The notes under the pieces are model-generated. The model was given only the letters and a program-made list of their open reading frames with translations. It ran no database searches and was not told the origin of the DNA. From Candidatus Brevefilum sp. (GTDB lineage: Bacteria > Chloroflexota > Anaerolineae > Anaerolineales > Anaerolineaceae): a stretch of DNA of 64,000 bases. The first letter of the stretch is position 1. Each line of letters opens with the position of its first letter. The translations under genes were made by a program, and so were the position numbers. The stretch lies in contig JAHYJN010000001.1 in the NCBI GenBank assembly GCA_019428905.1, positions 1 through 64,000 of the forward strand, written 5' to 3'. This document shows, in pieces, positions 2,392 through 17,976 of this stretch.

Positions 2392-3142
2392 GTTCCATCT
2401 CCAATTCTTTGCGTGTTTTTATGCTGGCCCCTAAGTACTGATGAATCAGATCTGTATCATTGACCAAATCAGCCATCATCCCATTATGAACACTTTGTCC
2501 ATCATCGATGATCGTGAACCGTTGCGCAAGTTGACTGGCCATGATGAAATTCTGTTCCACCAGTAAGATGGTTGTCTTTTCACTCAGCGTGCGAATGGCT
2601 TCCATCATTTGTTGAATGAGGATAGGCGCCAACCCTTCACTGGGTTCATCAATTAAGAGCAATTTGTTGTCAGGTACCAATGCTCGAGCAACAGCCAGCA
2701 TTTGTTGCTGACCACCTGAAAGATGATTGCCTGGTAATTTGTAAAGTCGTTTTAAGTCTGGGAAGAGATCAAAGATGAAATCTGCACTGCGGTCAAAGTC
2801 GCCTTTTTTCCGCTCTGCGATCTTCAAGTTTTCCATCACCGATAGCGCTCGGAAAATAGCACGATGTTCTGGGACATAACCAATTCCAAGGTTGGCAACA
2901 TTGAAGGCTCGTTTGCCCTGAATCTCCATCCCATCAAAGATCACCTTCCCATCTTGCGGCGGAGTGAGCCCTAAAATAGATTTAAGTGTGGTTGTTTTGC
3001 CAGCGCCATTTCGCCCCAATAATACCGTGATCGAGCCCTTTGGCACCCTTACAGATACACCTTCCAAAATGTGGAATTGGCCAATATACGTGTGAATATT
3101 GTCTACAATGAGAATGTCTTCTTGTGAATTTGTTATGCTCAT
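2375..3142 (-). CDS. livF: Liv-type ABC transporter ATP-binding protein LivF
   Basis: Cytoplasmic ATPase subunit, 255 residues, typical of LivF. Visible motifs are Walker A GRNGAGKTT (about 43-51), the signature LSGGQQQ (about 141-147) and Walker B LLLIDEP (about 161-167), followed by SEGLAP, which is typical of LivF rather than LivG. The start overlaps the stop of livG by 4 bp (ATGA), and the end overlaps livH. It would pair with LivG to energise the LivH/LivM pore. No odd residues were noticed. Confidence 0.96.
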   Translation of the reverse strand: MSITNSQEDILIVDNIHTYIGQFHILEGVSVRVPKGSITVLLGRNGAGKTTTLKSILGLTPPQDGKVIFDGMEIQGKRAFNVANLGIGYVPEHRAIFRALSVMENLKIAERKKGDFDRSADFIFDLFPDLKRLYKLPGNHLSGGQQQMLAVARALVPDNKLLLIDEPSEGLAPILIQQMMEAIRTLSEKTTILLVEQNFIMASQLAQRFTIIDDGQSVHNGMMADLVNDTDLIHQYLGASIKTRKELEMEHEAQA

Positions 3143-3909
3143 GCCAGTTCTCCATACAGATCACCCAAGTAGGCAATTTGGACTTGTTTATTATTCGCAA
3201 TTTCACCCGGCGATCCTTCTGCAAGGATGCGGCCTTGATTCATAACCGTCACCACATCAGAGATGGACATCACCATATCCATCCGGTGCTCAACCAAAAT
3301 AGCAGTACGCTCATGCCGCTGAACAATGCGATTAATAATGTCGATCAATTCTGGAACCTGTTCCGATGACATACCTGCTGTCGGTTCATCAAAGAGCAGC
3401 AATTCAGGATCACAAGCCAGCATAATCCCCAGCTCAAGTTTACGTTTTTCTCCATGGGTAAGATCACGGGCTAGAAAATAAGCCCTACCCGCTAAATCAA
3501 CTGTCTCCATCACTTCCTGTGCTTGGTCAATATACTGCTGAAATTCATCTGCCCGGCGAAAGAGTTTAAAATTATCTCTTCCTTTAGCCTGGGCTGCCAG
3601 CCGAATGTTTTCTAATACCGTCAAATTTGGAAAGATATTCGTGATCTGGTATGATCGCCCGATGCCTAAATGAGCCCTTTTGTAGGGCGGCAGAGAGGTG
3701 ATGTTTTCACCTTTATAGAACACCTCCCCTTGTGTGGGCGGCATGACACCGCTCAGTAAATTAAACAAGGTTGTCTTCCCAGCACCGTTCGGACCGATAA
3801 TGGCATGCATGGTTTTAGCTTGGATGTTGATACTCACATCATCGACAGCCACCAATCCGCCAAAGGCTTTCGTTAGGTTTTTCGCTTCGAGAATGAAATC
3901 CGTTGTCAT
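3139..3909 (-). CDS. livG: Liv-type ABC transporter ATP-binding protein LivG
   Basis: Cytoplasmic ATPase subunit, 256 residues. Walker A GPNGAGKTT lies at about 39-47 and Walker B LLLFDEPTAGM at about 170-180. The signature reads LTHGEKRKLELG instead of the more usual LSYGQQRRLE, a modest divergence still seen in LivG proteins. The C-terminal LivG extension (EGSPGEIANN..IAYLGDLYGELA) is present. It is the first of four tightly overlapping genes. A 181-bp gap with a strong hairpin separates it from the binding-protein gene upstream, so it is probably expressed at a lower level than the lipoprotein. Confidence 0.96.
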   Translation of the reverse strand: MTTDFILEAKNLTKAFGGLVAVDDVSINIQAKTMHAIIGPNGAGKTTLFNLLSGVMPPTQGEVFYKGENITSLPPYKRAHLGIGRSYQITNIFPNLTVLENIRLAAQAKGRDNFKLFRRADEFQQYIDQAQEVMETVDLAGRAYFLARDLTHGEKRKLELGIMLACDPELLLFDEPTAGMSSEQVPELIDIINRIVQRHERTAILVEHRMDMVMSISDVVTVMNQGRILAEGSPGEIANNKQVQIAYLGDLYGELA

Positions 3910-4090: not shown

Positions 4091-5467
4091 TTACTCGGTT
4101 GGAATAGTAGGCAAATCACCACAGCGAGCTGCGTAATCACCAGCCAATGTACACGGCACGCCCAGTTCGTTGTACTCAGAAACATAAATGGTCTCAAAGA
4201 AACGATACTCGTTAATGCCGTCATCATCCAGATCAGGGTTCAGATTCACGAGCTGGAGGATATTCATCGGTTGCTCGCAGACATGATCTTCTGGACGAAT
4301 ATAATAGGTGCCCTTCGGTCCTTCAAATTTGAGCCCTTCTAAAGCAGCGATCATAGCATCAGCTGAGGCATCACCCTCGGTGATCTCTAACGCAGTTGCT
4401 AATGCAATGGCTGAAGCCATGCCACCGGCTGTGAAGAGATCTGGATAGGCGTTAATCGCGCCATCAGCTTCACCTGAATAGCGTTCAAAGTGATTCTCAA
4501 CCAGCCAATCATTGACTGGATTGTCAGGAACAGTGTAGTGGTAGACATTCAGACCAATTGATCCGAGTGTGTCCTCACCAAACACAGCAGCAAACGAAGC
4601 GTTATCACCGAAACCGGTACCCACTGTCATAGTGTCAAGCGTACCCATATCAGCTAAGTTCTGGAATAAGGTGACATACCCCGTGCCTGCCCAAGTCAGG
4701 AAGAGGTTTTCAGCACCAGAATCCATAACTTGTTGAATATAGGGTGTAAAATCGGTGGTTTCAAAAGGTGCGTAGATATCGGCAATCAACTCACCGCCGA
4801 ATTGCTCAACAGAGTATTTGAGTGCCGCACCGGAACCCTGCCCAAAAGCATTATCCACACCAATATGGGCGAAATTCGGACCAACATTCTCCACCAGGTA
4901 CTTGGCGATGATCAAAGTATCATCAAAGCTAGTGCGAGAGGTTCGGAACACATAGGGGTTGAAATATAAACCGGTCATAAAATAGGAAGCCGCGGGATCG
5001 ATCATCAGGATGATCTCATTTTCTAGGGCAACGTTGGTGAGTGCAATCGCACTGGCTGAGGATACAGGACCCTGGATCAGCTCAACACCATCTCTCTCGA
5101 TCAGCTCAAGTGCCAGCGCAACGGCTTTTTCTGGGTCGCCTTCGTCATCTTTGACAATGACCTCAACTGGTCGGTTGGCAATGATATAACGACCCTGGTC
5201 GTCGGTTTCTCCACCTGACATATACTCAAGGCCCATCAGGAAACCACGCTGCTGCTGCAGACCATATAAGGCCATCACACCAGACATCTGACCAATTTGG
5301 CCAATCTTTAATACTGGGCCTAATTCAGGTTCTTCCACAGGCTCTTCAACGACCACTGGTTCTTCCACAACTGGTTCTGGCACTTCTTCGACCTGTTGGA
5401 CACATGAGGTCACCAGCAGCGGGATGATAATCAGGATGGTCAATATGGTTAAACGTAACTTTTTCAT
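4091..5467 (-). CDS. Liv-type ABC transporter substrate-binding lipoprotein
   Basis: Extracytoplasmic receptor of the importer, 458 residues. A lipoprotein signal peptide is visible: basic MKKLR, a hydrophobic core, then lipobox LVTSC with Cys22. An acidic, proline-rich tether of EEPV-type repeats (about 27-48) follows. The periplasmic-binding-protein type 1 fold begins at LKIGQIGQMSG, with family features such as DDEGDPEKAVALALELIERDGVELIQGPVSS spread over residues 110-140. The gene starts with ATG and a preceding GAAGGAG ribosome site. It is the first gene of the transporter set; the hairpin after it could keep its mRNA more abundant than that of livGFHM. The ligand cannot be predicted. Confidence 0.93.
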   Translation of the reverse strand: MKKLRLTILTILIIIPLLVTSCVQQVEEVPEPVVEEPVVVEEPVEEPELGPVLKIGQIGQMSGVMALYGLQQQRGFLMGLEYMSGGETDDQGRYIIANRPVEVIVKDDEGDPEKAVALALELIERDGVELIQGPVSSASAIALTNVALENEIILMIDPAASYFMTGLYFNPYVFRTSRTSFDDTLIIAKYLVENVGPNFAHIGVDNAFGQGSGAALKYSVEQFGGELIADIYAPFETTDFTPYIQQVMDSGAENLFLTWAGTGYVTLFQNLADMGTLDTMTVGTGFGDNASFAAVFGEDTLGSIGLNVYHYTVPDNPVNDWLVENHFERYSGEADGAINAYPDLFTAGGMASAIALATALEITEGDASADAMIAALEGLKFEGPKGTYYIRPEDHVCEQPMNILQLVNLNPDLDDDGINEYRFFETIYVSEYNELGVPCTLAGDYAARCGDLPTIPTE

Positions 5468-5557: not shown

Positions 5558-6352
5558 TTAATCATTCTTGGTTACAAAACCGAGTAATAGCGTATTTAAA
5601 ATAGCCGGCTTTTCTATACACAGGGCATGACCTGAGCCAGGCACCACAACCAATTCACTGGAGGAGATTTGATCAGCAATAATTTTAGCATACTCGCGCC
5701 CTTTGATCAGGTCTTCTTCTCCAGCTATGACCAGCGTCGGTGCGGATATATTTGAAAGCTGTCCGGTGATATCCAATTCATAAAAGGCCTTCATCAACCA
5801 GGTCAGAGCTTTCATGTCCAATTGTGCATACCTATCCACAGAAGTATCGATAAATGCCTGGTTAGCCTTAATCCAGCCCTCAGCAAAATTCATGTGATAA
5901 GACGTTTTCAACAACAGTTCCGGGTCCTCCCTTTCAGCCGCCATCAACCAGGGGTAGGTTTGTGCGCGGAGGAGCGGATGAATTTCGCTGACGCCGTCGA
6001 TGACAATCAGGGATTTAGCCCACTGAGGATAGGATAGAGCAAAGACCATGCTGATCTCTGCGCCATAGGAAATCCCCGCAATGTGGGCCTGTTCAATGCC
6101 GAGCCCATCCAGCAACCCGGCCAGGTCATCAGCGTGCATTTGCATCGAATATGGCCCCTCAGGATGGTCAGATTGCCACATCCCGCGGCAGTCGTAGAGT
6201 AAAACTTGCAAATGCCGCTCCAACACAGCTTTCTGATAAGCCCAGCTGGCTGTACCCATCATGATCCCATTGGACAGCACCAAAACCGGTGCGTCTTTTG
6301 GACCTGAAAGCTCGTAATATAAATCAATGTTGTTTACGGTAATGCGCGGCAC
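5558..6352 (-). CDS. Alpha/beta hydrolase, 3-oxoadipate enol-lactonase-like
   Basis: Soluble hydrolase of 264 residues. A nucleophile elbow GISYG (Ser about 95), an acid in GEEDLI and a histidine in GSGHALCIEKP form a complete catalytic triad. The overall layout resembles PcaD/BioH-like esterases and lactonases. An upstream GTG at 6367 is in frame. The GTG at 6352 is preferred because AGAGGAAG sits 4-10 nt before it and the domain begins directly after (PRITVNNIDLYYELSG). It follows the DUF35 gene almost without gap. It may hydrolyse a thioester, ester or lactone made by this operon (inference). The true substrate is unknown. Confidence 0.88.
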   Translation of the reverse strand: MPRITVNNIDLYYELSGPKDAPVLVLSNGIMMGTASWAYQKAVLERHLQVLLYDCRGMWQSDHPEGPYSMQMHADDLAGLLDGLGIEQAHIAGISYGAEISMVFALSYPQWAKSLIVIDGVSEIHPLLRAQTYPWLMAAEREDPELLLKTSYHMNFAEGWIKANQAFIDTSVDRYAQLDMKALTWLMKAFYELDITGQLSNISAPTLVIAGEEDLIKGREYAKIIADQISSSELVVVPGSGHALCIEKPAILNTLLLGFVTKND

Positions 6353-6367
6353 AGAACTTCCTCTCAC

Positions 6368-6784
6368 CTACACCGGTCTGAATCCCAGGTATGTTTTTTC
6401 GTTTTCTTCACCACCACGTTTGATGGTCGTCATGATTAATTTCGTCCCAATTTGAATGCTTTCGGGCTGGCTGACATCCACATCCAGAATTTGGCCAGAG
6501 ATCTTTGGCCCTTCATCCAACTTGACTACACCGACACAGTAAGGATTCTTGGCATCATAACCAGCCTGCGCCATCATTAAAGAAGGGACATAAATCACAG
6601 TGAAAGCCAGCAGGGTACCTTTTCCTGAGAGGCTGACGATCTCCGTATTCGAGCCAAGACATCTCGGGCAAATCCCTCGCTGCGGGACCACCATGGCACC
6701 ACAATCCAAGCAGTGAGAACCAATCAATTGATCTGTCTCAAGTGCGGTAAAAAAATCTTTGCTATTCATTGAAAATTCAGCCAT
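6368..6784 (-). CDS. DUF35-family zinc-ribbon/OB-fold protein, thiolase partner
   Basis: Small 138-residue protein. The N-terminal rubredoxin-like zinc ribbon has Cys25, Cys28, Cys39 and Cys42 (CLDCG...CPRC), followed by an OB-fold (GTLLAFTVIYVPS, PYCVGVVKLDEG, ISGQILDVD). In known systems DUF35 proteins bind thiolase-superfamily enzymes, as in the archaeal thiolase/HMG-CoA synthase complex and the actinobacterial ChsH2/Ltp2 pair. They help pass the CoA intermediate. Its start overlaps the thiolase stop by 8 bp, which fits a stoichiometric complex here. The ATG is preceded by GGAGAG. A role as the bridge between the thiolase and the KAS III-like protein is inferred. Confidence 0.9.
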   Translation of the reverse strand: MAEFSMNSKDFFTALETDQLIGSHCLDCGAMVVPQRGICPRCLGSNTEIVSLSGKGTLLAFTVIYVPSLMMAQAGYDAKNPYCVGVVKLDEGPKISGQILDVDVSQPESIQIGTKLIMTTIKRGGEENEKTYLGFRPV

Positions 6785-8048
6785 TTAAATCTCTCCGCTC
6801 AAAAATATTTACAACACAGGTTTGGCCGGTGCCGCCCACATTATGGGTCAACCCAATTTTTGGGTCGCCTGGTACCTGGCGTTCACCAGCGATGCCATTT
6901 AATTGCTTCCAAATTTCTGCTACCTGGCCCACCCCTGTGGCACCTACAGGATGGCCTTTCGATTTCAATCCACCGGATGTATTTACCGGATGATCACCCT
7001 TTCGGGCTGTTTTACCTTCGATGGCCGCCTGCCACCCTGCCCCACGCTCAAAGAAGCCCAGGTCTTCTGTTGCAATGATCTCTGCAATCGTGAAACAATC
7101 ATGAACTTCTGCCAGGTCAATGTCCTTCGGAGAAAGATTTGCCATATGATAGGCTTGCCGACCCGCTTCTTCTGCCGCTGGAATGCTGGAGAGGGTCTCC
7201 CTTTCTGGCAATGCGCCATCGCTGGCCTGTCCGCTGCCAACCAGGTAAATGGGCGTATCTGTAAACGTGCTGGCCAGATCTTCCGAAACCAACAATGCCA
7301 CCGCCGCCCCATCCGATACAGGTGAGCAGTCAAAAAGCGTCATCGGCCAGGCAATCATCGGATTGCCTTTGGGATCGCTTAGGAAATCAATTTCATCCTC
7401 CCACTCCGGAACCGGCCGCCCTTTTTGGGCAGCACGCGCTTTTTTGGATTCCATGATGGATCGAATGGTCTGACCAAATTGTGCCTTATCGTTTAAAGCA
7501 CCGTTGCTATGGTTCTTAATACTCACATGATAAAACGCGTCACGCTGCGCATTGTATTCATGCATGTAAGCAGATGCCATCGCAGCGTAAAAACCGGGGA
7601 AGGTAAAACCCGCAGGCACTTCAAACTGGGTATCTGCTGCTGTCGCCAGGGCTTCAGTGACTGCCGCGATCTCCAGGTCGGTCATCTTTTCAACGCCACC
7701 GACCAAAACAACATCATATTGACCTGACGCAATCGCCAGGGCAGCTTGCCGGATAGCTACCCCGCCAGAAGCGCATGCATCTTCAATGCGCACAGTGGGT
7801 ATTGGAGAAAGCCCAACCCAGCTCGCCAAAATAGGTGCGAGGTGCGCTTGTTTTTCAAATTGATCACTGCTGAAGTTACCTAAGTAAAAGGCCTCCACCT
7901 TTTTGGGATCATACCTGTGCATGGAATTTATCAAATCCAGGTATGCTTCAACAAATAGATCACGCGAATTCTTTTCTTTGAATGCACCAAATTTACTGAG
8001 CCCAACGCCAACAACGGCTACCCCTCTATTCCATTTTGATTCTGACAT
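6777..8048 (-). CDS. SCP2/SCP-x type thiolase
   Basis: Cytoplasmic thiolase of 423 residues, making or cleaving beta-ketoacyl-CoA. Nucleophilic cysteine in DACASGG (about Cys92), HDCFTIAE, and the C-terminal GGLKSKGHPVGATG histidine motif are all present, so the catalytic set looks complete. The HDCF motif places it in the SCP-x branch that typically works with DUF35 partners, as in archaea. A GTG at 8057 is in frame, but the ATG at 8048 is preferred because AGGTGG lies 5 nt upstream. The neighbours (KAS III-like, DUF35, CoA-transferase, SDR) point to one acyl-CoA pathway. Direction, synthesis or cleavage, cannot be told. Confidence 0.92.
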   Translation of the reverse strand: MSESKWNRGVAVVGVGLSKFGAFKEKNSRDLFVEAYLDLINSMHRYDPKKVEAFYLGNFSSDQFEKQAHLAPILASWVGLSPIPTVRIEDACASGGVAIRQAALAIASGQYDVVLVGGVEKMTDLEIAAVTEALATAADTQFEVPAGFTFPGFYAAMASAYMHEYNAQRDAFYHVSIKNHSNGALNDKAQFGQTIRSIMESKKARAAQKGRPVPEWEDEIDFLSDPKGNPMIAWPMTLFDCSPVSDGAAVALLVSEDLASTFTDTPIYLVGSGQASDGALPERETLSSIPAAEEAGRQAYHMANLSPKDIDLAEVHDCFTIAEIIATEDLGFFERGAGWQAAIEGKTARKGDHPVNTSGGLKSKGHPVGATGVGQVAEIWKQLNGIAGERQVPGDPKIGLTHNVGGTGQTCVVNIFERRDLNG

Positions 8049-8064
8049 CCAAACCACCTGTTCC

Positions 8065-8376
8065 TTATTGTTCTTTAATGTATATGCGTGCTTCGGATAG
8101 ATCCGCTGGGCGCGCGCCGCTTGGACCTGCTGCCAAAGCCATCTTTAATTGATCAGCATCAATGGTGAACCGGCCTTTAAATTCACCGGTAAATCCCAGT
8201 GTATGCTCGGTCTGCTGCATCGTGATCATTTCACTATCAACGACATAGGTGCCACCAGAGACAATGCCCATGGGTTCATATTCAGCTGTAAATGTTCCCT
8301 CTTGTTTGAATTCAAACCAAAGGCCTTGATAAGGCTGACCTTGTGCCTGAACCCATTTTCCGACGATTTCTGACAT
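8065..8376 (-). CDS. Small conserved-looking protein of unknown function inside the acyl-CoA operon
   Basis: 103 residues, no signal peptide or membrane helix, no cysteines. The sequence alternates short beta-strand-like pieces with aromatic residues (GLWFEFKQEGTFTAEYEPMG, GGTYVVD, MQQTEHTLGF, GRFTIDADQLKM), suggesting a small beta-barrel or lipocalin-like fold. The start has a strong GAGGAGG ribosome site. The family was not recognised. It sits between the CoA-transferase and thiolase genes with short gaps (18 and 16 bp), so it is almost certainly cotranscribed and may bind a pathway intermediate or stabilise a partner (inference). Confidence 0.8.
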   Translation of the reverse strand: MSEIVGKWVQAQGQPYQGLWFEFKQEGTFTAEYEPMGIVSGGTYVVDSEMITMQQTEHTLGFTGEFKGRFTIDADQLKMALAAGPSGARPADLSEARIYIKEQ

Positions 8377-8394: not shown

Positions 8395-9708
8395 CTAGAA
8401 AGTTGTTTTTGGGACAATACCCAACCGGTGGGCTTCGTCTCGAATCCAATCTCGGAAGTTTGGATGTGCAATCCGCACCAAAGCTTCCATTCGGTCCTTT
8501 ACACACCGTCCACGTAATTCTGCGACCCCATATTCAGTGATGATGGTATCTACATCCTGGCTGGGCACAGTTACGCCAGCACCTGGAGCGAGGGTTGGTA
8601 CGATGGTTGAAATGCTGCCATTTTTGGCTGTCGAACGCAGGGCAATGATGCCGCGCCCACCCGAAGACATTTGCGCGCCGCGATGGGTGTCTAATTGGCC
8701 GCCTGTCCCGCTGAATTGGCGCGTTCCAATGCTTTGCGAACACACCTGGCCGATAATATCAACCTGCAGCGCCGTGTTAACACTGATCATCTTATAATTC
8801 TTTGCGATCACGTATGGGTCGTTGGTATAGCGCCCGCGATACATTTCAACATCTTTGTTGTGGTCAATGTGGTTGTACAACTTGCTGCTCCCTAAAGCAA
8901 AAGCACCAATCGTTTTTCCCGGATGCAGCGTCTTTTTTCGATTGGTGACCACCCCAACTTCGATCAAGTCAACCATACCATCCACGAGCATTTCTGTGTG
9001 TATGCCTAAATCTTTACGCTCCATGATAAAAGCTGTAATGGCATTGGGAATGCCACCAATGCCAAGTTGGATGGTAGAGCCATCTTCAATCAAATCAGCG
9101 ATGTAACCGCCAATCTGTTGTTCAATCTCAGTAGGCGCCTCAGACTGTAATTCAACCAGTGGCACATGATTTTCAACCAGGTAATTGACTTCCGAAACAT
9201 GCACCAGGGTATCCCCATACACCCAGGGTAAGTTGGGATTGACTTCAAGGATCTTAAGATCAGCTGCTTCTAGCAAGTCTTTTTGGACAATTAATCCTAA
9301 AGACAGGGACATATAACCATCTTGATTGGGCGGGGTGGCAGTGCCCCAAAAAATGTCTAAGTGACCCTTGGTTGCACTTAATTTATCGGTAGCTGCACGA
9401 TGTAAATTATTGGGGATGTAAGACACCCGGCCTTCAGGATGAAACTGACGATCAGCATAGCTGTAAAACCAGTTTTCATTATAGATGTGTCCCGCCATTT
9501 CTGGTTTCGTAAAGATGTCGTAGGAACGCATTGGCAAACATGTCCAGCAATGGACATCCTGTACATCCTTTGCTTTTTCCGCCAGGGTGGATAACAATCC
9601 TACAGGTTCTGCACCGGCAATGCCCACACCAATAGTCTGGTGAGATTGGACCATTGAAACCGCATCGACCAGCGAAATGTATTTATCTTCAAATTGCTTT
9701 GATGGCAT
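8395..9708 (-). CDS. Acetyl-CoA hydrolase/CoA-transferase family protein (4-hydroxybutyrate CoA-transferase-like)
   Basis: 437 residues, a two-domain family I CoA-transferase fused as one chain. Visible motifs are IQLGIGGIPNAI and LGIHTEM; the glutamate in HTEM (about Glu239) corresponds to the residue that forms the glutamyl-CoA intermediate in 4-hydroxybutyrate CoA-transferase. The C-terminal domain has GTGGQLD, KNGSISTIVPTLAPGAGVT and TEYGVAELRG. It probably moves CoA between acetate or another short acid and the pathway acid, activating it without ATP. Hydrolase activity is the alternative. It is 17 bp downstream of the KAS III-like gene. Confidence 0.9.
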   Translation of the reverse strand: MPSKQFEDKYISLVDAVSMVQSHQTIGVGIAGAEPVGLLSTLAEKAKDVQDVHCWTCLPMRSYDIFTKPEMAGHIYNENWFYSYADRQFHPEGRVSYIPNNLHRAATDKLSATKGHLDIFWGTATPPNQDGYMSLSLGLIVQKDLLEAADLKILEVNPNLPWVYGDTLVHVSEVNYLVENHVPLVELQSEAPTEIEQQIGGYIADLIEDGSTIQLGIGGIPNAITAFIMERKDLGIHTEMLVDGMVDLIEVGVVTNRKKTLHPGKTIGAFALGSSKLYNHIDHNKDVEMYRGRYTNDPYVIAKNYKMISVNTALQVDIIGQVCSQSIGTRQFSGTGGQLDTHRGAQMSSGGRGIIALRSTAKNGSISTIVPTLAPGAGVTVPSQDVDTIITEYGVAELRGRCVKDRMEALVRIAHPNFRDWIRDEAHRLGIVPKTTF

Positions 9709-9725: not shown

Positions 9726-10736
9726 CTATTTTGGCATGCGAAAAGCCACGGCTGCCTGGTTATAACCAACACCTGATCCTATAAACACCACCAGATCACC
9801 TGGTTTTATCTTTCCCAATTTGCGCGCATCATCAAAGGCCATGGGCAGACAAGCCGAGCCTGTATAGCCCCATTTGTCCATAATCCAGTGCGCTTTTTCG
9901 AGCGGCAACCCTACCTCTTCCATGACTAGTTTGATGGAATTCAGCCGCACTTGTGTAAATATCACAAAATCGATATCCTCGATGGCAAAATCGCCATTTT
10001 TAGCCACTTCTCGGATGCGCTTTGGCCAACCTTCATTGTTTACTTCAGGCGGAAAAGGTGTCACCAGTTTAACTTTGGTCTTGCCAGATTGGATATTTTC
10101 GACCGTTGCCGGTTCTGCCGTTCCGCCAGCATAAATTCCCCAGTTTGGATAGTAAGAGCCATCGGCAAAAAAGGCTGACGAAATAAAGCCTGGCTGATCC
10201 CCTGGCGCTAACACCGCTGCCCCCGCACCATCACCATAGAAAAAGCTGATCACATCTGACTTGTAATCAGCTAAGCGATGCATCATATACGCACCGATTA
10301 CCAAGATGTATTTAAGATGCGGATTGGTGCTGATCAAACCCGCCCCTAAAGCGAGACCGGTTGGAAAGCTGGCACAGGCGCAGCCTACATCAAAAGTGCC
10401 AGCATTTTTGGCGCCAAGTTTCTCCTGGACGACCACCGAGGTAGCCGGGGTGATGTAATCAGGTGAGTCTGTACCCAAAATGATCAAATCGACATCCTCA
10501 GGCGTGATGCCAGCATCTGCCAGGGCATCTTTGGCTGCTTCCACGGCAAGATCAGAAGTGGCCATGTCCTCATCTGCATAAAAGCGGGTTTTGATATTTG
10601 AACTGCTTTCGAACTTGCCCACAACATCAGCTAAAGCGGGGTTGATCTCAGCCATCCATTGGGCAAAAGTTTCATTGGTAATCTCGTTTTTTGGCAAATA
10701 TCGACCAGTGCCAATGATGTTTGCATGACGTTCCAT
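9726..10736 (-). CDS. KAS III (FabH)-like condensing enzyme lacking the catalytic His and Asn
   Basis: 336 residues with the full KAS III/HMG-CoA-synthase fold. The nucleophile cysteine is kept in DVGCACASF (about Cys121) and GDGAGA is present. By alignment to FabH, the HQAN motif reads FTQVR (His to Thr, about 261) and the GNTSAAS motif reads GYTGSAC (Asn to Tyr, about 291). Two of the three triad residues needed for decarboxylating condensation are therefore replaced. It may be a non-decarboxylating acyltransferase, an HMG-CoA-synthase-like enzyme or a distinct subfamily. The start at 10736 has GAGG 5 nt upstream; in-frame codons at 10760 and 10751 are less likely. It is cotranscribed with thiolase and DUF35. 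Confidence 0.85.
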   Translation of the reverse strand: MERHANIIGTGRYLPKNEITNETFAQWMAEINPALADVVGKFESSSNIKTRFYADEDMATSDLAVEAAKDALADAGITPEDVDLIILGTDSPDYITPATSVVVQEKLGAKNAGTFDVGCACASFPTGLALGAGLISTNPHLKYILVIGAYMMHRLADYKSDVISFFYGDGAGAAVLAPGDQPGFISSAFFADGSYYPNWGIYAGGTAEPATVENIQSGKTKVKLVTPFPPEVNNEGWPKRIREVAKNGDFAIEDIDFVIFTQVRLNSIKLVMEEVGLPLEKAHWIMDKWGYTGSACLPMAFDDARKLGKIKPGDLVVFIGSGVGYNQAAVAFRMPK

Positions 10737-10789
10737 TTCTTCCTCTTTCATAAGTAACACGGTCTAACTGGTAACAATGCTCGTTGGGC

Positions 10790-11554
10790 CTAAGTTCCTA
10801 ACACCATCCCGCCATCCACACTGATCGCAGCGCCATGGATAAATGTAGCTTCATCACTGGCTAACCATGCATACAGGTTAGCAACATCCTCGGGTTGCCC
10901 CATGCGACCAAGTGGTGTTTTTGCGGCCAGGCCTTCTAGAATCTTTTCTGGCATTTTCTTAACCATCTCGGTCAGAATAAAACCGGGGCAGACAGCGTTA
11001 ACACGAATGTTAAACCGTCCTAACTCACGGGACCAGGTTTTTGTCATACCAATCACGCCGAATTTCGTTGCTGCGTAATTCGTCTGCCCAAAATTGCCAT
11101 ATAAACCGACAATCGATGAGGCATTCAATATGACGCCGCCGCCTTGTTGGATCATTTGAGGTGTCACAGCCTGGGCACAATTGAAGGTGCCTTTGAGGTT
11201 GACATCCAGTACCAAGTCGAAATCAGACTCAGACATTTGACTGACCACTGCGCCATCTTTGTACTTAACAAACAGGCCATCGCGAGTGATACCAGCATTG
11301 TTGATCAGGACATCCACCCGACCAAATTTCTCAACAACATCATCCACCCAAGATTGGACCTCAGCACGATTAGCTACATTGACTTTGTAAAACAAGGCAC
11401 CATTCCCCAACTGATCCGCAACAGCTTGCCCCACTTCTGCATCAAGGTCACAAATAATTACTCTTGCCCCTTCTTTGACAAATTTCTCAGCCGTGGCTTT
11501 TCCAATCCCCGCTGCGCCACCAGTGATCAAACATACTTTATCCTTTAACCGCAT
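10790..11554 (-). CDS. Short-chain dehydrogenase/reductase, FabG/PhaB-like
   Basis: 254-residue NAD(P)-dependent oxidoreductase. Motifs are the nucleotide loop TGGAAGIG (11-18), NNAG (85-88), the catalytic Ser in ASS (146-147), and Tyr160/Lys164 in YAATK. FabG and acetoacetyl-CoA reductases share this layout, so reduction or oxidation of a 3-oxo/3-hydroxyacyl thioester is likely. The open frame extends to 11635, but the ATG at 11554 with AGAGGAG upstream is the real start; the extra residues would overlap the promoter leader. It is the first gene of the acyl-CoA operon, directly downstream of the SARP-repeat promoter. Confidence 0.9.
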   Translation of the reverse strand: MRLKDKVCLITGGAAGIGKATAEKFVKEGARVIICDLDAEVGQAVADQLGNGALFYKVNVANRAEVQSWVDDVVEKFGRVDVLINNAGITRDGLFVKYKDGAVVSQMSESDFDLVLDVNLKGTFNCAQAVTPQMIQQGGGVILNASSIVGLYGNFGQTNYAATKFGVIGMTKTWSRELGRFNIRVNAVCPGFILTEMVKKMPEKILEGLAAKTPLGRMGQPEDVANLYAWLASDEATFIHGAAISVDGGMVLGT

Positions 11555-11625: not shown

Positions 11626-11668
11626 AGTATAGCAAACCTGGATTACAAATGGGTTACGAAGGGGTTAC
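11626..11668 (-). promoter_or_regulatory. SARP-type activated promoter: three heptamer direct repeats before a -10 box
   Basis: On the minus strand three heptamers, GTAACCC (11668-11662), GTAACCC (11657-11651) and GTAATCC (11646-11640), recur at exactly 11 bp with 4-bp spacers. Exactly 8 bp separate the last one from a TATACT -10 box (11631-11626). No good -35 box is present, because the repeats occupy that place. This is the classic geometry of SARP activator sites (11-bp repeat period, last repeat 8 bp from -10). It drives the SDR gene at 11554. The regulator gene ends only 24 bp upstream. Confidence 0.8.
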
Positions 11669-11691: not shown

Positions 11692-14600
11692 TCAAAATTC
11701 TGAGACAAGCTGTTGATATAAACTTTCTGTTTCACGAGAGATAGGTGCGTTTAATTGATTTGAGAGCAATTCTATACAGCGATGATAAACCTCATGCACC
11801 ATTGAGTGTTGCCCTAGTTTGTGAAAAATCAACATCTGGGCGCGATAAGCAGCCTCCCAGAATGGGTCCTGATTTAGGATTTGATAAGAGATATCCAACG
11901 CCTGAGAATATTCATCTGTGTCGATAAAGTTGGTGAGCAAGCGATCAGCAGCCAGCATGAACTGCTGATGATAATATTGCTCTTCAATGGTTAACCTCTC
12001 GCAAATTGGACTATCTGAAAAATAGCTCCCTCGATATAACGTAAGCGCGTTTTCAAGATCGCGCACCTGGGCATGATTGATCATTTCTACAAATAAATCC
12101 GCATCGACGATGATGCGTGCTTTCGGACTCAACCGATAACTTTCCTGGTGCCGCTCAATAAAAAACGGGGCATCGCCTCGGGGTCGATCAGGCTCTAACA
12201 CCTGGTTGGCGGCATTATAGATCACCTTAAAATAACTCGCACTTTGCCCCCCCAGGGAATCAGGCCATAGCCATTCGCTGATTTGATCTTTTTGCACCCA
12301 TTTTCCACGCTGTGCTACCAGAATCTGAAAGAATTGACGTGCTTTTTCTCGCTTCCAATCCTGTGTTCCGATTAATTGATCACCCCGCCAGACTCTGAAG
12401 GTGCCCAGAGTTTGGACCCACAAGGTGTATCCAGGATGGCAGCATTCATTTGTGATGTCTCGTTGTCTCAATAATTGACCCAACAATTCTGACTCAATAC
12501 CGTTGTCATATGCAGCCAACGCCAAAGGATAAATCATCTCCCGATCTCTTAGCCCTAACAAGGTTTCTCTTGACAAGAGAAATTCATATCCATGATTTTT
12601 AACAAGCGTCAGGCATTTTTCAAAATAACCAAACGCTGTATTTTGATACCCCTGTTTCCAAGCTTTCAGGGCTAACCACATCCTGGCAGCACACAAGGTA
12701 AAAGGATCCTTTACGCGTATCGCTGAGGTCTCTGCAGTGGTTAAGAACCGCTGTGCAGCTTCTTGGTTATTAGCAAAAACAGCCCCCGCGCCTAAGGATA
12801 GACAGATTAAGATGCTGATCCATTCATCACCTGCTGTTTCAGCAATGGATAGGGATTCTAAAGCCAATTCTTCAGCTCTTTTGTACTGACCGGCATAACC
12901 CAGGGCTCGGCACATACCCCACAATGGTTCAACATGGATGCGGATTACATCGATTTGTTCAATTGATTCTTGATAATATTGCAATGCCTGGTTGAAACCA
13001 TGATTGCTGAAAGGGTGCTGATCTCGAAGAAGCAGCGCATGCCCCAGGCGCATATAACCGACGGACTGGACAAATTTTGAACGCAACAGCTTGCCAATAT
13101 CAATCCCTTGGCGTGCAAATTTTTCTGCATGATCTTGCTCTCCAAATATGGCGTAATACAACGATAAAAGTAATGTGCTCTCCCGGTGAAACCGTTGTGG
13201 TCTAGATGTTGGTAATGATGGACTGTTGGCTTCACGATCCAGCAATAGCTCGATGCCGGCTTTCAACCGACCCGTGCGTAAATAAACACGTGCTTGGATA
13301 TAATCCGTCTCCAATTCCAGATCTGGCATCAACTCGCTGGCTTGTGACAGTAATTTTTCAGCATTATCTGGATAACCTAAATTAAGTTGATTCTCGGCGA
13401 TCAAAACTAAAAGATCCGCCACCTCCTGGCGCATTTCACTTGGATCAAGCAGTTTTAATGCATCCTGCAGTAATTGATCCGCGTTGTTCGGGCGAATTGT
13501 ATCTAAAAATACCTGGCCTTGACCACGTAATGACCGAGAAATTCCCAACGGGTTTTGATGTGCTCGATAGAGACGCTCTGCCTGGTGATAATAATCCAGT
13601 GCATCCTCAAAACTGCCTAAATATCGGTTGACTTCACCCAACAGGTAGATCAAATAAGGAAAGGACTTCCGGTGAGGCTCAGGAATCTCGTGGATCCAAT
13701 AGTTAATTGATTCATGGCGCCCATCTTGAATAAATTGCTTTCCAATATTCTCCATAATTTGGTTGACCTGGAAATAGTCGTGCGCAGAAAGCAAATGGTA
13801 GATCGCTTCTTCCCAATATTCGTGCGCCCGAAAATAGCTGGCAATTTTCAAGTGAAGATCAGAAACCTGGCTCGGATTTCGTTGAATTTGGCTTAGCAAA
13901 AACGTCCTGAACATCTGGTGATAGCGATAAACCCCAGGCCGAAGTTCCTCAACAAATAATCCAGAATCATTAAGCTCACTAAGGACAACATCACTATTTT
14001 CGATTGTCAGTAAAAAATCACAGGCCGTGTTTTCAAGTTTAGAGAGGATGGATGTTTGCAAGAGGAAGTTTTGGATATGTAGGGGTAAACCACCTAAAAC
14101 GTCTTCTGCCAAATATTCAAACAACGTAGATTTTGATTGGCGCTCGTCTTCCAACACCTGCTGGATTGTGAGATCCGGGTTATTTTGCAGTGTCTGCCAG
14201 ATCATTTGCAAGCCAATTGCCCAGCCCTCTGTCTTTTTAAGAAGTTGATCAACAGATAGCTCTGATAAGATGATTCCGTATTGTTGTTCAAACAGTAAAG
14301 CAACTTCCTCACCTGTAAATGCTAAATCTTCCTTGGCAATTTTCAACACCTCATCCTTTACTGACCATTTATTGAGTGACGGAAAGTTGAGTGTGTGGCG
14401 AGTTGAAATGATCACATGCATTTTTGAGGGAAGGTGTTCGATGATCCAATCCATAAAACCGATCACATCAGGGACATCGCAAACAAGATGAAAATCATCA
14501 AGAACAAGAAAAGAATCCTGCGTGATATACATTGTCACCGCGTTAATAAAACCAATCAGCGCTTCTTCAAGCGTTGTGTCAGGGATATCCAATATCTTGA

Positions 14601-14898
14601 GCGGTTCCTCGCCAATCGGATGTTTGCGCTGATTAAAAGCTGTAAAGAGCTTTGCTAAGAATAATTTGGGATCACGTTCAGTGCCTGCGATGGTAAACCA
14701 GTAGATCGGATTAACCTGGCTATTCACAAATGAGAGAATCGACGTGCTTTTACCATAACCTGTTCCTGCCTCTAGTATGGTCAATGGGTAATTGATCGAA
14801 TGTTGCAGCTTTTGATTAACCCGTTTTCGCGCCAGCACACGGCTGCGTTGCGCGGGCGGATTGAGCTGGCTGAGAATGATTAAGTTGCGAATTGACAT
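11692..14898 (-). CDS. Large STAND/TPR transcriptional regulator with SARP-type C-terminus (OmpR-like wHTH + BTAD)
   Basis: 1068 residues. The N-terminus is a MalT-like STAND NTPase with Walker A AGTGYGKST (44-52) and a Walker B-like FLVLDDFHL. The middle is helical TPR-like repeat (about 380-790). The C-terminal quarter begins with an OmpR-like winged helix (WVQTLGTFRVWRG...KARQFFQILV, about 815-930) and ends in a BTAD domain (ENALTLYRGSYFSD onwards). This is the DNA-binding architecture of SARP activators joined to a signalling ATPase. Its gene ends 24 bp before SARP-like repeats in the next promoter, which it probably binds (inference). The ligand sensed is unknown. Confidence 0.92.
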   Translation of the reverse strand: MSIRNLIILSQLNPPAQRSRVLARKRVNQKLQHSINYPLTILEAGTGYGKSTSILSFVNSQVNPIYWFTIAGTERDPKLFLAKLFTAFNQRKHPIGEEPLKILDIPDTTLEEALIGFINAVTMYITQDSFLVLDDFHLVCDVPDVIGFMDWIIEHLPSKMHVIISTRHTLNFPSLNKWSVKDEVLKIAKEDLAFTGEEVALLFEQQYGIILSELSVDQLLKKTEGWAIGLQMIWQTLQNNPDLTIQQVLEDERQSKSTLFEYLAEDVLGGLPLHIQNFLLQTSILSKLENTACDFLLTIENSDVVLSELNDSGLFVEELRPGVYRYHQMFRTFLLSQIQRNPSQVSDLHLKIASYFRAHEYWEEAIYHLLSAHDYFQVNQIMENIGKQFIQDGRHESINYWIHEIPEPHRKSFPYLIYLLGEVNRYLGSFEDALDYYHQAERLYRAHQNPLGISRSLRGQGQVFLDTIRPNNADQLLQDALKLLDPSEMRQEVADLLVLIAENQLNLGYPDNAEKLLSQASELMPDLELETDYIQARVYLRTGRLKAGIELLLDREANSPSLPTSRPQRFHRESTLLLSLYYAIFGEQDHAEKFARQGIDIGKLLRSKFVQSVGYMRLGHALLLRDQHPFSNHGFNQALQYYQESIEQIDVIRIHVEPLWGMCRALGYAGQYKRAEELALESLSIAETAGDEWISILICLSLGAGAVFANNQEAAQRFLTTAETSAIRVKDPFTLCAARMWLALKAWKQGYQNTAFGYFEKCLTLVKNHGYEFLLSRETLLGLRDREMIYPLALAAYDNGIESELLGQLLRQRDITNECCHPGYTLWVQTLGTFRVWRGDQLIGTQDWKREKARQFFQILVAQRGKWVQKDQISEWLWPDSLGGQSASYFKVIYNAANQVLEPDRPRGDAPFFIERHQESYRLSPKARIIVDADLFVEMINHAQVRDLENALTLYRGSYFSDSPICERLTIEEQYYHQQFMLAADRLLTNFIDTDEYSQALDISYQILNQDPFWEAAYRAQMLIFHKLGQHSMVHEVYHRCIELLSNQLNAPISRETESLYQQLVSEF

Positions 14899-14942
14899 AT
14901 GGTTATTTCGTTTATCGTAGAACGATGCATTTACAACCTTGA

Positions 14943-14971
14943 ATTATAACGGTGAAAAGATTAGGGGACAA
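14943..14971 (-). promoter_or_regulatory. Promoter candidate for the SARP-like regulator gene
   Basis: Minus-strand TTGTCC (14971-14966), 17-bp spacer and a perfect TATAAT (14948-14943), about 45 bp before the regulator ATG at 14898. No heptamer repeats like those at 11640-11668 are seen here, so there is no sign of autoregulation by the same site type. Confidence 0.55.
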
Positions 14972-14991
14972 ATTATGTCCGTCCTGAGCGA

Positions 14992-15477
14992 TCAAACCAA
15001 CTTCAATACAACCTCTGGTTCATCACCATAATAGTCTCCCGTTGGAACAAACCCCAATTTCCGATAAAATTCACCCGGACCGCCCTCATCTGCGTCATAA
15101 CTTGTGTATAGTTCGGATATTCCAAAAGCCCGTAAATGATCTATCAACTTTGCGATGGCATTTTTGCCGTATCCCAAGCCTTGAAAGGGACGTGCAATCA
15201 TAAAACGCCATAAAAACACACCTGGGCAATCGATGCCATCTGCCCAATCAGAACCCAAATGCAGCATGATAAACCCAACCGCCGTTTGGTCAGCATAAAT
15301 CGCCCGCATCCACGCATTGTCAGAAACACAGCCCTGCGCAATCGAAACTGCATTATCAGCCACCGACCGGCGCTGTTCTTTCGTTAATGTTTCGCTCAAT
15401 TCGCAAATTTCAAGTACATTTTGCGCGTTGATGCGTTCAAAATGAATAACAGGTGATTTTTTTGAGGCATCTGACAT
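14992..15477 (-). CDS. GNAT-family N-acetyltransferase
   Basis: 161 residues from the ATG at 15477, which has GGAG 6 nt upstream. An in-frame ATG at 15489 overlaps the recD2 stop and has no ribosome site. The acetyl-CoA motif A is recognisable as FMIARPFQGLGYGKNAIAK, with the later motif GELGEFYRKLGF-like segment PGEFYRKLGFVPTGDY. The family transfers acyl groups from acyl-CoA to amines. It resembles spermidine acetyltransferases (BltD/SpeG-like) in length and C-terminal layout, but the substrate cannot be assigned. It follows recD2 with coupled stop/start. Confidence 0.82.
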   Translation of the reverse strand: MSDASKKSPVIHFERINAQNVLEICELSETLTKEQRRSVADNAVSIAQGCVSDNAWMRAIYADQTAVGFIMLHLGSDWADGIDCPGVFLWRFMIARPFQGLGYGKNAIAKLIDHLRAFGISELYTSYDADEGGPGEFYRKLGFVPTGDYYGDEPEVVLKLV

Positions 15478-15488
15478 GGTGCTCTCCA

Positions 15489-17738
15489 TCAGTACGACAG
15501 CAAGGACTTTTGCTGAGCAAGTTGAGGATTCTTTAAACGTTCAGCCAAGTTTGAGAAGCGCTTTGCAACCTTGTTGTTGCTAATAGCTATACGAAGCGCC
15601 TTTGAATTGCCTACCAAGACGCACCGTTGCGCAGCTCGGGTAATCGCTGTATATAGCAGGTTGCGCTGAAGCATTACATAATGCTGCGTGAGCACTGGCA
15701 TCACGATGGCTGGGAACTCTGAGCCCTGGGATTTATGCACTGAAACCGCGTAAGCAAGGACGAGTTCATCCGTTTCATTGAAATCGTAAACCACTTGTCG
15801 TGATCCATCCATCAGGACAGACAGGTTTTGCTCAATTGGGTCAATATTAACGATAAACCCAATGTCTCCATTAAACACATCTTTGTCGTAATTGTTCCGG
15901 ATTTGCATCACCTTATCCCCTACTCGAAAGAGTGTGCCAAACAGCCTGTGCTCGGATTTTTTGGGATCAGGTGGATTAAGATTGGCTTGTAAGCAGACAT
16001 TAAGGGCATCAACACCGGCAGCACCTCGGTACAGGGGTGCTAAGACCTGGATATCTCGCACGGGGTCCAAACCAAAGTTCTCTGGAATGCGCGTGGTGAC
16101 CAGGTCAACGATCCACTTAGCCGCGCTTTCAGCATCTTCAGCTGGAAATAAAAAGAAATCGCCATCAGGAGCTTTTGAGAAGCGGGGCATCTGACCGTGA
16201 TTGATCATATGTGCGTTCGTTACGATTTGAGAATCATATGATTGCCGAAAAATGGTTTTTAACCGAGCAACCGGTACAATGTCACTTTCGATGATGTCCC
16301 GCAGGACATCCCCTGCGCCAACCGATGGCAGTTGATCGACATCACCGACAAATAACACCTGTGTTCCTGGACGTAGTGCGCGTAAGAGATGATAAGTAAG
16401 CAGCAGGTCAAGCATGGAGGCTTCGTCGACGATAAGGAAATCAACCTTCAAAGGGTGGTTTTCGTGGTATTGAAAACCCCCATCTGGTGAAAATCCCAGC
16501 AAGCGGTGGATGGTGCTGGCTGGACGTCCGGTGGCTTCTGAGAGGCGTTTGGCTGCCCTCCCGGTGGGCGAAGCCAAGGCATAAGCTAAGCTTTTTACTT
16601 CTAGAATTTCAATCAACGCCTTCAGACAGGTTGTTTTGCCCGTACCCGGTCCGCCGGTTAAGATGCTGACAGGATGGGTGACTGCAATTCTGAGCGCTGC
16701 TTTCTGCTCTTCTGATAAGTCACTTGATTCAAATCCCAAAGATTGTTGCCATGCTCGAACTGGGTGCGACAGCAATCCCTGCAACCTGGCAGCCACCCCT
16801 TTTTCGCTGTGATAAAAAGGCGTCAGGTAAACCATAGGCTCGCCATACCCGGGTGTGTTTTCTGCGATTTGATAAGCAGCACCGTCAGCTTGGGTTGAAG
16901 AAGAGGTAAACGCCTCTGTGCGGATGCGATCTATGGCAGCCAACCGAACAAAACTATTACGGACCAGATCCGCATCAACTTCTAATAGCGCCTCTGCGCG
17001 CTCAGCGAGCTGGTTCTGAGGAGAATAAACATGTCCCTCATTGACCATCTCGTTGATGGCAAAAACGACACCAGCTTCGATGCGCGCTGGGTGATCTTGG
17101 GGCAAACCCAGGTTTTGGGCGATGCGATCAGCCGTTTTAAACCCCACCCCATAAATATCCTGTTCGAGCTGGTAAGGATTTTCTTTTACGACGGTTAACG
17201 CGTTATCACCATAGGCTTTATAGATTTTAACGGCCAGGTTTGTGCTGACGTGATGGTCGTGCAGAAAAAGCATGATCTCTTTGACCGATTTCTGCTCCTC
17301 CCAAGCGGTGATGATTTTGTCTGTGCGATCTACGCCAATCCCTGGAACCTCCCTCAAGCGTTGAGGATCGTGTTCGATGATTTCCATGGTCGCGCTTTTA
17401 AAATGTCTGACAATTCGCTTTGCCAATTGCGGGCCGATACCTTTGATCAACCCGGACCCTAAGTAACGCTCAATGCCGCCTTCGGTGACAGGCAGCAGCT
17501 TCTCACACACATTAGCTTTAAATTGCAGACCATGCTTTGGATGCGTTGCATAATCCCCCCCAAGTTGAAGGTGTTCTCCAGGTGATAGCTCAGGAAAGTT
17601 TCCAATGACGGTTAACAAACCTTCAAGATTCAAACCAACGACGTTTTGACCCCTATCCGGCCGCAAACGGAGGACAGTGTAACCATTTTCCTGGTTGTAG
17701 TAAGTTATGCGTTCAACAGACCCAGAGATCATCGTCAT
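15489..17738 (-). CDS. recD2: RecD2-type DNA helicase (RecD/TraA family)
   Basis: 749 residues from the ATG at 17738, matching the usual RecD2 length of about 720-750. The N-terminal OB-like region (MISGSVERITYYNQENGYTVLRL) and helix-hairpin-helix motifs (LIKGIGPQLAKRI, VPGIGVDRTDKI, IYGVGFKTADRI) precede the helicase core, which has Walker A GGPGTGKTT, Walker B VDEASM and a C-terminal UvrD-like YAVSVHKSQGSEF motif. RecD2 is a 5'-3' helicase working without RecBC in repair. The open frame continues to 17924, but that extension would cross the glnA promoter and lacks family similarity. Confidence 0.93.
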   Translation of the reverse strand: MTMISGSVERITYYNQENGYTVLRLRPDRGQNVVGLNLEGLLTVIGNFPELSPGEHLQLGGDYATHPKHGLQFKANVCEKLLPVTEGGIERYLGSGLIKGIGPQLAKRIVRHFKSATMEIIEHDPQRLREVPGIGVDRTDKIITAWEEQKSVKEIMLFLHDHHVSTNLAVKIYKAYGDNALTVVKENPYQLEQDIYGVGFKTADRIAQNLGLPQDHPARIEAGVVFAINEMVNEGHVYSPQNQLAERAEALLEVDADLVRNSFVRLAAIDRIRTEAFTSSSTQADGAAYQIAENTPGYGEPMVYLTPFYHSEKGVAARLQGLLSHPVRAWQQSLGFESSDLSEEQKAALRIAVTHPVSILTGGPGTGKTTCLKALIEILEVKSLAYALASPTGRAAKRLSEATGRPASTIHRLLGFSPDGGFQYHENHPLKVDFLIVDEASMLDLLLTYHLLRALRPGTQVLFVGDVDQLPSVGAGDVLRDIIESDIVPVARLKTIFRQSYDSQIVTNAHMINHGQMPRFSKAPDGDFFLFPAEDAESAAKWIVDLVTTRIPENFGLDPVRDIQVLAPLYRGAAGVDALNVCLQANLNPPDPKKSEHRLFGTLFRVGDKVMQIRNNYDKDVFNGDIGFIVNIDPIEQNLSVLMDGSRQVVYDFNETDELVLAYAVSVHKSQGSEFPAIVMPVLTQHYVMLQRNLLYTAITRAAQRCVLVGNSKALRIAISNNKVAKRFSNLAERLKNPQLAQQKSLLSY

Positions 17739-17914
17739 GTCCAAAGTATACTGGAATTTCCGGAAAAAATTTTCGCAACGCCAAATAAACACTTTAATGA
17801 AACAAGCGAATAAATCAGATGTAAACCTATGCGAAATGGCTTCTGTTTCCTGTCTTCCTCGGTAAATTCCTGGGTGATTGCAGTCTCTTTTAAGGATTGT
17901 GGGAGAGTTCATAG

Positions 17915-17920
17915 TATAAT
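17915..17920 (+). promoter_or_regulatory. -10 box candidate for glutamine synthetase
   Basis: A perfect TATAAT lies 56 bp before the glnA ATG in the divergent recD2-glnA gap. No convincing -35 hexamer sits 16-18 bp upstream, which suggests an activator-assisted promoter or chance. An AGGGAAGGG ribosome-site region follows close to the start codon. Confidence 0.45.
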
Positions 17921-17976
17921 CCACTTAGTGATCAAACCCATATCTAATCAGGATCTCAGGGAAGGGATAACCAGGA

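Follow-up and report, generated by a model that had tools for sequence, protein, structure and literature searches.

A STAND regulator with a C-terminal SARP unit and a conserved candidate operator of SARP geometry before acyl-CoA and transport genes in Chloroflexota and Bacillota

MalT of Escherichia coli ends in a LuxR-type helix-turn-helix (HTH), and EmbR of Mycobacterium tuberculosis, which has a winged helix-turn-helix (wHTH) plus BTAD fold (2fez), carries an FHA domain. The Streptomyces antibiotic regulatory proteins (SARPs) are described in the accessible part of PMC10936776 as mainly found in actinomycetes and as using direct repeats at 11 or 22 bp, the last of which lies 8 bp from the -10 box. 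For AfsR of Streptomyces coelicolor, a large SARP that joins a SARP unit, a STAND ATPase and TPR repeats in one protein, the same part of that article places the protomers side by side on the repeats, with sigma region 4 sitting on the SARP and not on a -35 box, describes the NOD and TPR parts as inhibitory until ATP binds, and gives the afsS operator 11-bp direct repeats, the last 8 bp from the -10 box, with a poor -35 box. MalT is presented there as a STAND protein triggered by its inducer and then by ATP, and as an inducer-triggered STAND in the accessible parts of PMC4381067 and PMC6468293. PimR and other SARP-LAL regulators likewise combine a SARP with a large ATPase, the SARP being N-terminal (PMC3367932, accessible part), and the main PimR operator consists of three heptamers (CGGCAAG) with 4-bp spacers and does not overlap the -35 box (PMC5930380, accessible part). 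No earlier description of the regulator class presented here was found in the open-licence PMC literature, including the accessible part of PMC10663231, which is weak evidence of absence, and one public record names such a protein only “tetratricopeptide repeat protein”.

The locus lies in a 64-kb stretch of DNA from Candidatus Brevefilum sp., the whole of which is referred to as the window. Its features, in the direction of transcription, are as follows.

11692 to 14898, minus strand: regulator, 1068 aa, with MalT-like STAND (residues about 6-415), TPR region and C-terminal SARP unit made up of wHTH (about 829-943) and BTAD (944-1064) (profiles, fold model)
11662 to 11668, minus strand: heptamer 1 (upstream repeat), GTAACCC (sequence; register conserved in relatives)
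11651 to 11657, minus strand: heptamer 2, GTAACCC (sequence; register conserved in relatives)
11640 to 11646, minus strand: heptamer 3, GTAATCC, promoter-proximal, 8 bp before the -10 box (sequence; register conserved)
11632 to 11634, minus strand: extended -10 element TGn (TGC) (sequence; TGn in most non-redundant sites of relatives)
11626 to 11631, minus strand: -10 box TATACT (sequence; conserved in relatives)
10790 to 11554, minus strand: SDR (FabG-like), first operon gene, 254 aa (domain matches, orthologs)
9726 to 10760, minus strand: KAS III-like synthase, 344 aa (domain matches)
8395 to 9708, minus strand: acetyl-CoA hydrolase/CoA-transferase family protein, 437 aa (domain matches)
8065 to 8376, minus strand: 103-aa protein without Pfam match (17 of the 85 scanned loci encode a relative, at 45-69% identity)
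6777 to 8057, minus strand: thiolase-domain protein, 426 aa (domain matches)
6368 to 6784, minus strand: DUF35/ChsH2-type OB-fold zinc-ribbon protein, 138 aa (domain matches)
5558 to 6367, minus strand: alpha/beta hydrolase, 269 aa (domain matches)
4091 to 5467, minus strand: branched-chain-type substrate-binding protein (the first gene after the candidate operator of Bacillota encodes a relative)
898 to 3909, minus strand: two ABC ATPases and a permease of the same branched-chain-type transporter (domain matches)

Read along the minus strand from 11668 to 11626, the site is GTAACCC-cttc-GTAACCC-attt-GTAATCC-aggtttgc-TATACT, with a heptamer period of exactly 11 bp (11668-11640) and an 8-bp spacer, AGGTTTGC, between heptamer 3 and the -10 box. 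The original prediction had described these three heptamers and their distances correctly, and had recognised in them the SARP layout, an assignment strengthened by relatives in which the 11 and 8 bp given in the accessible part of PMC10936776 recur. It was also right that the regulator gene ends just upstream of the repeats and that a thiolase/KAS III/DUF35 operon follows, to which a CoA-transferase-like gene, an alpha/beta hydrolase gene and branched-chain-type ABC transporter genes can be added; the distance of 24 bp given for the gene end is corrected to 23 bp, measured from the stop codon (11694-11692) to heptamer 1. The extended -10 dinucleotide that adjoins the -10 box (TGC-TATACT) had gone unmentioned. 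The SDR starts at an ATG at 11554 with GAGGAG ahead of the start codon, and the leader would be about 65 nt long if transcription starts about 7 bp past the -10 box.

A scan of both strands of the window gave one GTAAY triple at 11 bp, the strict score defined below gave one site in the window, and the pattern GTAAYn6GTAAYn10TAnnnT has its only exact match in the 3.04-Mb assembly here. With one mismatch allowed the genome holds nine matches, which we regard as background because the reversed control pattern gives 23, and a wider regulon in this genome is therefore not claimed. As regards autoregulation, neither inspection by eye nor the window-wide scan showed repeats in the 152 bp that precede the regulator gene (14899-15050). 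A lone half-site TTTTGTAACC (GTAACC at 5575-5570, minus strand) stands before the substrate-binding protein gene, and the window scan showed it to have neither a partner at 11 bp nor a good -10 box.

The regulator had been predicted as a 1068-residue protein with a MalT-like ATPase and TPR repeats ahead of a C-terminal OmpR-like wHTH plus BTAD, and profile and fold comparisons agree on both parts. Residues 6-415 match MalT 8bob in a profile search (E 1.6e-64), an N-terminal homology of about 410 residues that makes this a MalT-type P-loop NOD, and P-loop residues G47, G49 and K50 are invariant across 25 aligned sequences. In the same kind of search the NOD of AfsR is not matched. At the other end of the protein, the BTAD scores 54.1 bits against a Pfam cut-off of 22.1, and the wHTH, which Pfam does not match, was aligned to AfsR by profile (829-1067 against chain residues 25-262); such a profile was needed, as phmmer, given only the C-terminal 232 residues, returned two weak non-SARP matches from PDB. 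For the last 235 residues, an AlphaFold2 model (pLDDT 90.7, pTM 0.79) has AfsR as its best PDB match (Foldseek E 4.8e-07; VIA Z 15.7, rmsd 3.6, 210 aligned, model residues 14-235), followed by EmbR 2fez (Z 14.1, rmsd 3.6, 216 aligned), from which the regulator differs in having STAND/TPR instead of FHA and with which, to our knowledge, it has no operator in common. Because a Z of 14.1 is also obtained for TPR proteins that cover just the BTAD part (97-235 of the model), the SARP assignment rests on coverage of wHTH plus BTAD. By sequence and predicted fold, then, the C-terminus is a SARP unit, an OmpR-type wHTH followed by a BTAD; the full-length model has a pLDDT of 87.7. Unlike in AfsR and the SARP-LAL regulators, where the SARP unit is N-terminal and the additional domains are C-terminal, the BTAD occupies 944-1064 of 1068 residues and the domain order is reversed, and unlike in MalT the SARP unit takes the place of the LuxR-type HTH, with no LuxR HTH among the regulator's Pfam and NCBIfam matches and with a site of SARP type. 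The genome has seven BTAD genes, and the other six carry the unit near the N-terminus.

Within the recognition helix region, K891, E902 and P903 are identical in 77/77 clade regulators (53 from Chloroflexota and 24 from Bacillota, some of them without a found site), V892 is present in 69/77, and position 895 is N or S in 76/77. Four outgroup paralogs of the same architecture have FHTALxRLR or FNNAIYRLR in this helix, and the recognition helices of other BTAD/STAND proteins differ from that of this regulator. AfsR contacts bases through T88 and R92 (PMC10936776, accessible part), and the residues aligned to them are V892 and A896; on this alignment we rejected carrying the AfsR base-contact map over. 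The regulator and the Streptomyces SARPs thus have geometry in common and probably not base reading, and the heptamers differ from those of AfsR and PimR as well.

In a first look at 60 relatives, 18 had full-length regulator orthologs (72-34% identity; L009-L026), and in most cases the same layout stands either downstream of the ortholog or ahead of the SDR. Loss of the repeats despite a retained regulator was looked for among genomes of the same genus and not found: all eight with a full-length ortholog have the site, which immediately follows the regulator gene in seven of them and in G010 lies 1.4 kb beyond that point, ahead of the SDR. A systematic count then covered 83 SDR places (81 genomes) and 68 regulators (68 genomes), with all counts inflated by kinship and many of the genomes being incomplete MAGs; the SDR place of G056, which has no more than 57 bp of sequence ahead of it, was excluded, and 82 remained. 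The strict score called for two GTAAY slots of at least 4/5 at 11 bp, an 8-bp spacer and a -10 box of at least 3/6, with a sum of at least 13, within 600 bp. The search for the same spaced heptamers before homologous operons, which the original prediction had recommended, was successful: the layout precedes the SDR within 600 bp at 52/63 places with a regulator in the genome versus 1/19 without (Fisher p 9e-10, uncorrected for kinship), 18 of these 52 sites having three repeats and 34 two. A strict site follows the regulator within 600 bp in 51 of the 65 genomes that have that stretch to look at, and when either position is accepted (600 bp after the regulator or 1500 bp before the SDR), 62/68 regulator genomes have a site versus 1/20 SDR genomes without the regulator.

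The register itself is specific. At an 8-bp spacer, repeat spacings of 9, 10, 12 and 13 gave 0, 0, 0 and 1 of 82 SDR places, the opposite strand gave 1/82, and Markov-1 simulations gave a mean of 0.3 of 82, while a 22-bp repeat spacing (17/63) is expected from three-repeat sites. With 11-bp repeats, spacers of 6, 7, 9 and 10 gave 24, 4, 12 and 12 of 63, which we read as slid -10 matches in the same promoters; the -10 box is the looser part of the register, and spacer tolerance is loose until the -10 box must start with TA. Under that requirement the best 79 named loci, partly the same contigs as the genomes of the systematic count, gave 61 forward and 2 reverse sites at a repeat spacing of 11 and a spacer of 8, compared with 2 at (11,7), 1 at (11,9) and at most 4 in each of the ten other registers tried, both strands together. 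Control loci had no sites, either around other BTAD/STAND genes (0 in 17, the four outgroup paralogs included) or around other SDR genes (0 in 17). A chance match as the origin of the site is rejected on the strength of the genome and window scans, the register controls and these control loci.

Across 301 genomes, 59 have both regulator and SDR, 20 the SDR only, 6 the regulator only and 216 neither. Four of the six regulator genomes without an SDR ortholog (G145, G155, G169, G219) have a site after the regulator, one (G071) has a weaker site with a score of 11, and in one (G203) no site was found after the regulator. Of 28 SDR places that lack a regulator gene immediately ahead of them, 18 keep the site; examples lie 16 kb (G028), 48 kb (G184) and 74 kb (G156) from the regulator, or have it on another contig (G023, G279, G083, G197, G206, G234).

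No strict site was found within 600 bp at 11/63 SDR places of regulator-bearing genomes, and seven of these are explained: three sites lie at 858-946 bp (G278, G259, G072), one is a point under the threshold (G311), one place is cut by a contig break (G055) and two are second SDR copies (G115, G309). The others are G041, G086, G202 and G244, the last of which has a site after its regulator. The six of 68 regulator genomes without a strict site in the stretches examined are G041, G071, G086, G202, G203 and G311, the stretch downstream of the regulator being outside the search in G086 and G202. For 22 of the best 79 named loci, the 1500 bp that follow the regulator contain no strict site; in 6 of the 22 this stretch is truncated by a contig end. 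A candidate operator is also present in a genome of 88% completeness (G024:C218, upstream of 11949) that yielded no regulator ortholog.

Positions that played no part in selection are conserved as well. The logo of 61 Chloroflexota sites below 70% identity reads TTTGTAACC-n3-TTGTAACC, followed by 8 bp with TGn directly before the -10 box; GTAAY and the -10 box were selection criteria, and the flanking T and C and the TGn were not. In these sites the T stands before the upstream repeat in 89% and before the downstream repeat in 70%, the C follows the two GTAAC blocks in 67% and 56%, and TGn is present in 46/61, an extended -10 that sets most Chloroflexota sites apart from AfsR's. As predicted, the promoter has no -35 box: at 17 bp spacing all 61 sites have 0-2 of 6 TTGACA matches, and 56/61 have at most one.

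The best 79 named loci are almost all from Chloroflexota MAGs, together with the cultured Bellilinea caldifistulae (L202), and one is from a Bacillota strain, Ornithinibacillus halophilus (L263; regulator at 33% identity), where the order is regulator, a terminator-like hairpin seen by eye, GTAACTTccgtGTAACTAtgaccaatTATGAT (about 9325-9356 of L263) and a substrate-binding protein gene. In B. caldifistulae GOMI-1 (contig NZ_LGHJ01000014.1) the regulator gene is closely followed by two repeats, an 8-bp spacer and TATCCT. Within the family of this species the regulator was found in 25/159 genomes (E <= 1e-100), and the site was tested in 24 of the 25, a fragment (G391) being left out. The layout lies 40-154 bp before the substrate-binding protein match in 24/24 genomes, or 24/25 places when a second copy without it (G431) is included. 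In the same 600-bp regions the reverse strand gave 0 at (11,8), and seven other registers gave 0 except (11,6), with 3 forward and 1 reverse of 24. The consensus is TTGTAACTnccTTGTAACT, 8 bp and TATGAT; TGn is absent (0/20), and the 24 sites have 0-1 TTGACA matches at 17 bp, with the best over 15-19 bp mostly 2-3. Because only 7/25 Bacillota loci have the site directly after the regulator (a loose match in L289 is uncounted), the site goes with the operon. One such operon (L324) holds genes for the substrate-binding protein, Urt/Liv-type ABC subunits, a KAS III (PRK06840, above cut-off), a hydrolase and an SDR, the kinds of genes seen in the window, and L325 and L326 have several of them. In the regulator tree the 24 Bacillota proteins form one clade (support 1.0), and a wider clade (support 0.82) unites them with regulators of Anaerolineae and other Chloroflexota; a single transfer or ancient descent would be compatible with this branching. 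The pairing of regulator and operator that had been proposed for the window is supported by this comparison, in which the presence of the site follows that of the regulator and the pairing recurs in Bacillota.

The target genes are of a transport and acyl-CoA kind in Chloroflexota and Bacillota, and not an antibiotic cluster in an actinomycete. The combination of KAS III, thiolase/DUF35, a hydrolase and a CoA-transferase or CoA ligase hints at a pathway that activates acids and works on C-C bonds. The window hydrolase is below the NCBIfam cut-off for intracellular PHA depolymerase, and the Bacillota hydrolases of L324 and L325 are above it.

Very probably, the repeats are the operator of the adjoining STAND-SARP hybrid, acting as an inducer-dependent activator of the acyl-CoA/transport operon, where we infer binding, activation, sigma contact and switching by ATP and inducer from AfsR and MalT. 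At rest, the C-terminal SARP unit would be kept inactive by the MalT-like ATPase and the TPR part; a metabolite together with ATP would lead the regulator to open and multimerise. Two or three SARP units could then occupy adjacent 11-bp repeats, immediately ahead of a promoter without a -35 box, and would give sigma region 4 and RNA polymerase the contact that a -35 box would provide. As transporter genes are common to the operons of both phyla, our guess is that the inducer is the transporter's import or its product, probably a carboxylic acid or its CoA ester.

The regulator might instead bind the repeats as a repressor, covering the -35 region of an extended -10 promoter until the inducer removes it. 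The repeats do sit where a repressor would block, and an extended -10 promoter of the kind found in most Chloroflexota sites might fire without an activator; we consider this improbable, given that no -35 hexamer accompanies the sites of either phylum, that the Bacillota sites, without TGn, look weak unaided, and that the layout equals that of activating SARPs (PMC10936776, accessible part). It is less probable still that the repeats belong to another regulator, whether one of the six N-terminal SARP-type proteins or an unseen factor, with adjacency due to descent only. The seven BTAD genes, the site in a genome where no regulator was found (G024) and the six regulator genomes lacking a strict site speak for such a factor; against it, the site tracks this regulator at the SDR places and again in Bacillota, and the 17 control loci of other BTAD/STAND genes have no site, the recognition helices of such proteins being different. 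The position of the window site, 23 bp past a stop codon, would also suit a conserved promoter or transcript feature, such as an ECF-type promoter, a terminator, a leader structure or a constraint from the 3' end of the regulator gene. That explanation is the least probable of all, as the site is retained before the operon in genomes whose regulator lies 1.3-74 kb off or on a different contig, conservation falls on the GTAAC blocks, the 11-bp period and a sigma-70-like -10 box and not on paired arms, and relatives differ in how far the -10 box lies from the SDR, between 35 and more than 900 bp.

Returning to the activator reading, we lean, with some reserve, towards a wider one in which inverted large SARPs form inducer-driven multimers on an 11-bp ladder and switch on uptake and acyl-CoA genes, the SARP grammar (11 bp, 8 bp to the -10 box) being a general bacterial device in which helix and heptamer are free and geometry is fixed. 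If so, this grammar would not be an actinomycete antibiotic speciality; the geometry is kept in two phyla beside a protein of reversed domain order, which makes it, and not the antibiotic setting, look like what is essential. The pairing of regulator and operator hints at a switch of uptake and acyl-CoA genes that has received little notice. It would make it possible to study how several SARP units are brought onto DNA by a STAND sensor, would supply a rule for reading the targets of large proteins annotated only for their tetratricopeptide repeats, and would open a way into an uncharacterised uptake and acyl-CoA pathway.

Several further observations concern the surroundings of these loci. 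Two sites per cluster occur in L222, L224, L265, L266 and L268. In one Bacillota genome (G366) a second site (L324:2477, minus strand), GTAACTgccatGTAACT followed by TATACT in register, lies about 67 bp before an acyl-CoA ligase-like gene, and at least two promoters may be under control there. A small ORF (SFxxRFV...YRGAIRHIQ) stands between the candidate operator and the SDR in some families of Anaerolineales (L023, L024, L056, L058, L059). Upstream of the regulator in the window, GNAT acetyltransferase and RecD2 helicase genes run in the same direction (14992-17924). Finally, in Chloroflexota strain ZRK35 (L298, CP069395.1) the regulator and operon are on a record called a 180-kb plasmid, with a transposase gene adjoining the regulator, an extra gene between regulator and operon, and a RecD-like helicase gene about 10 kb from the regulator.
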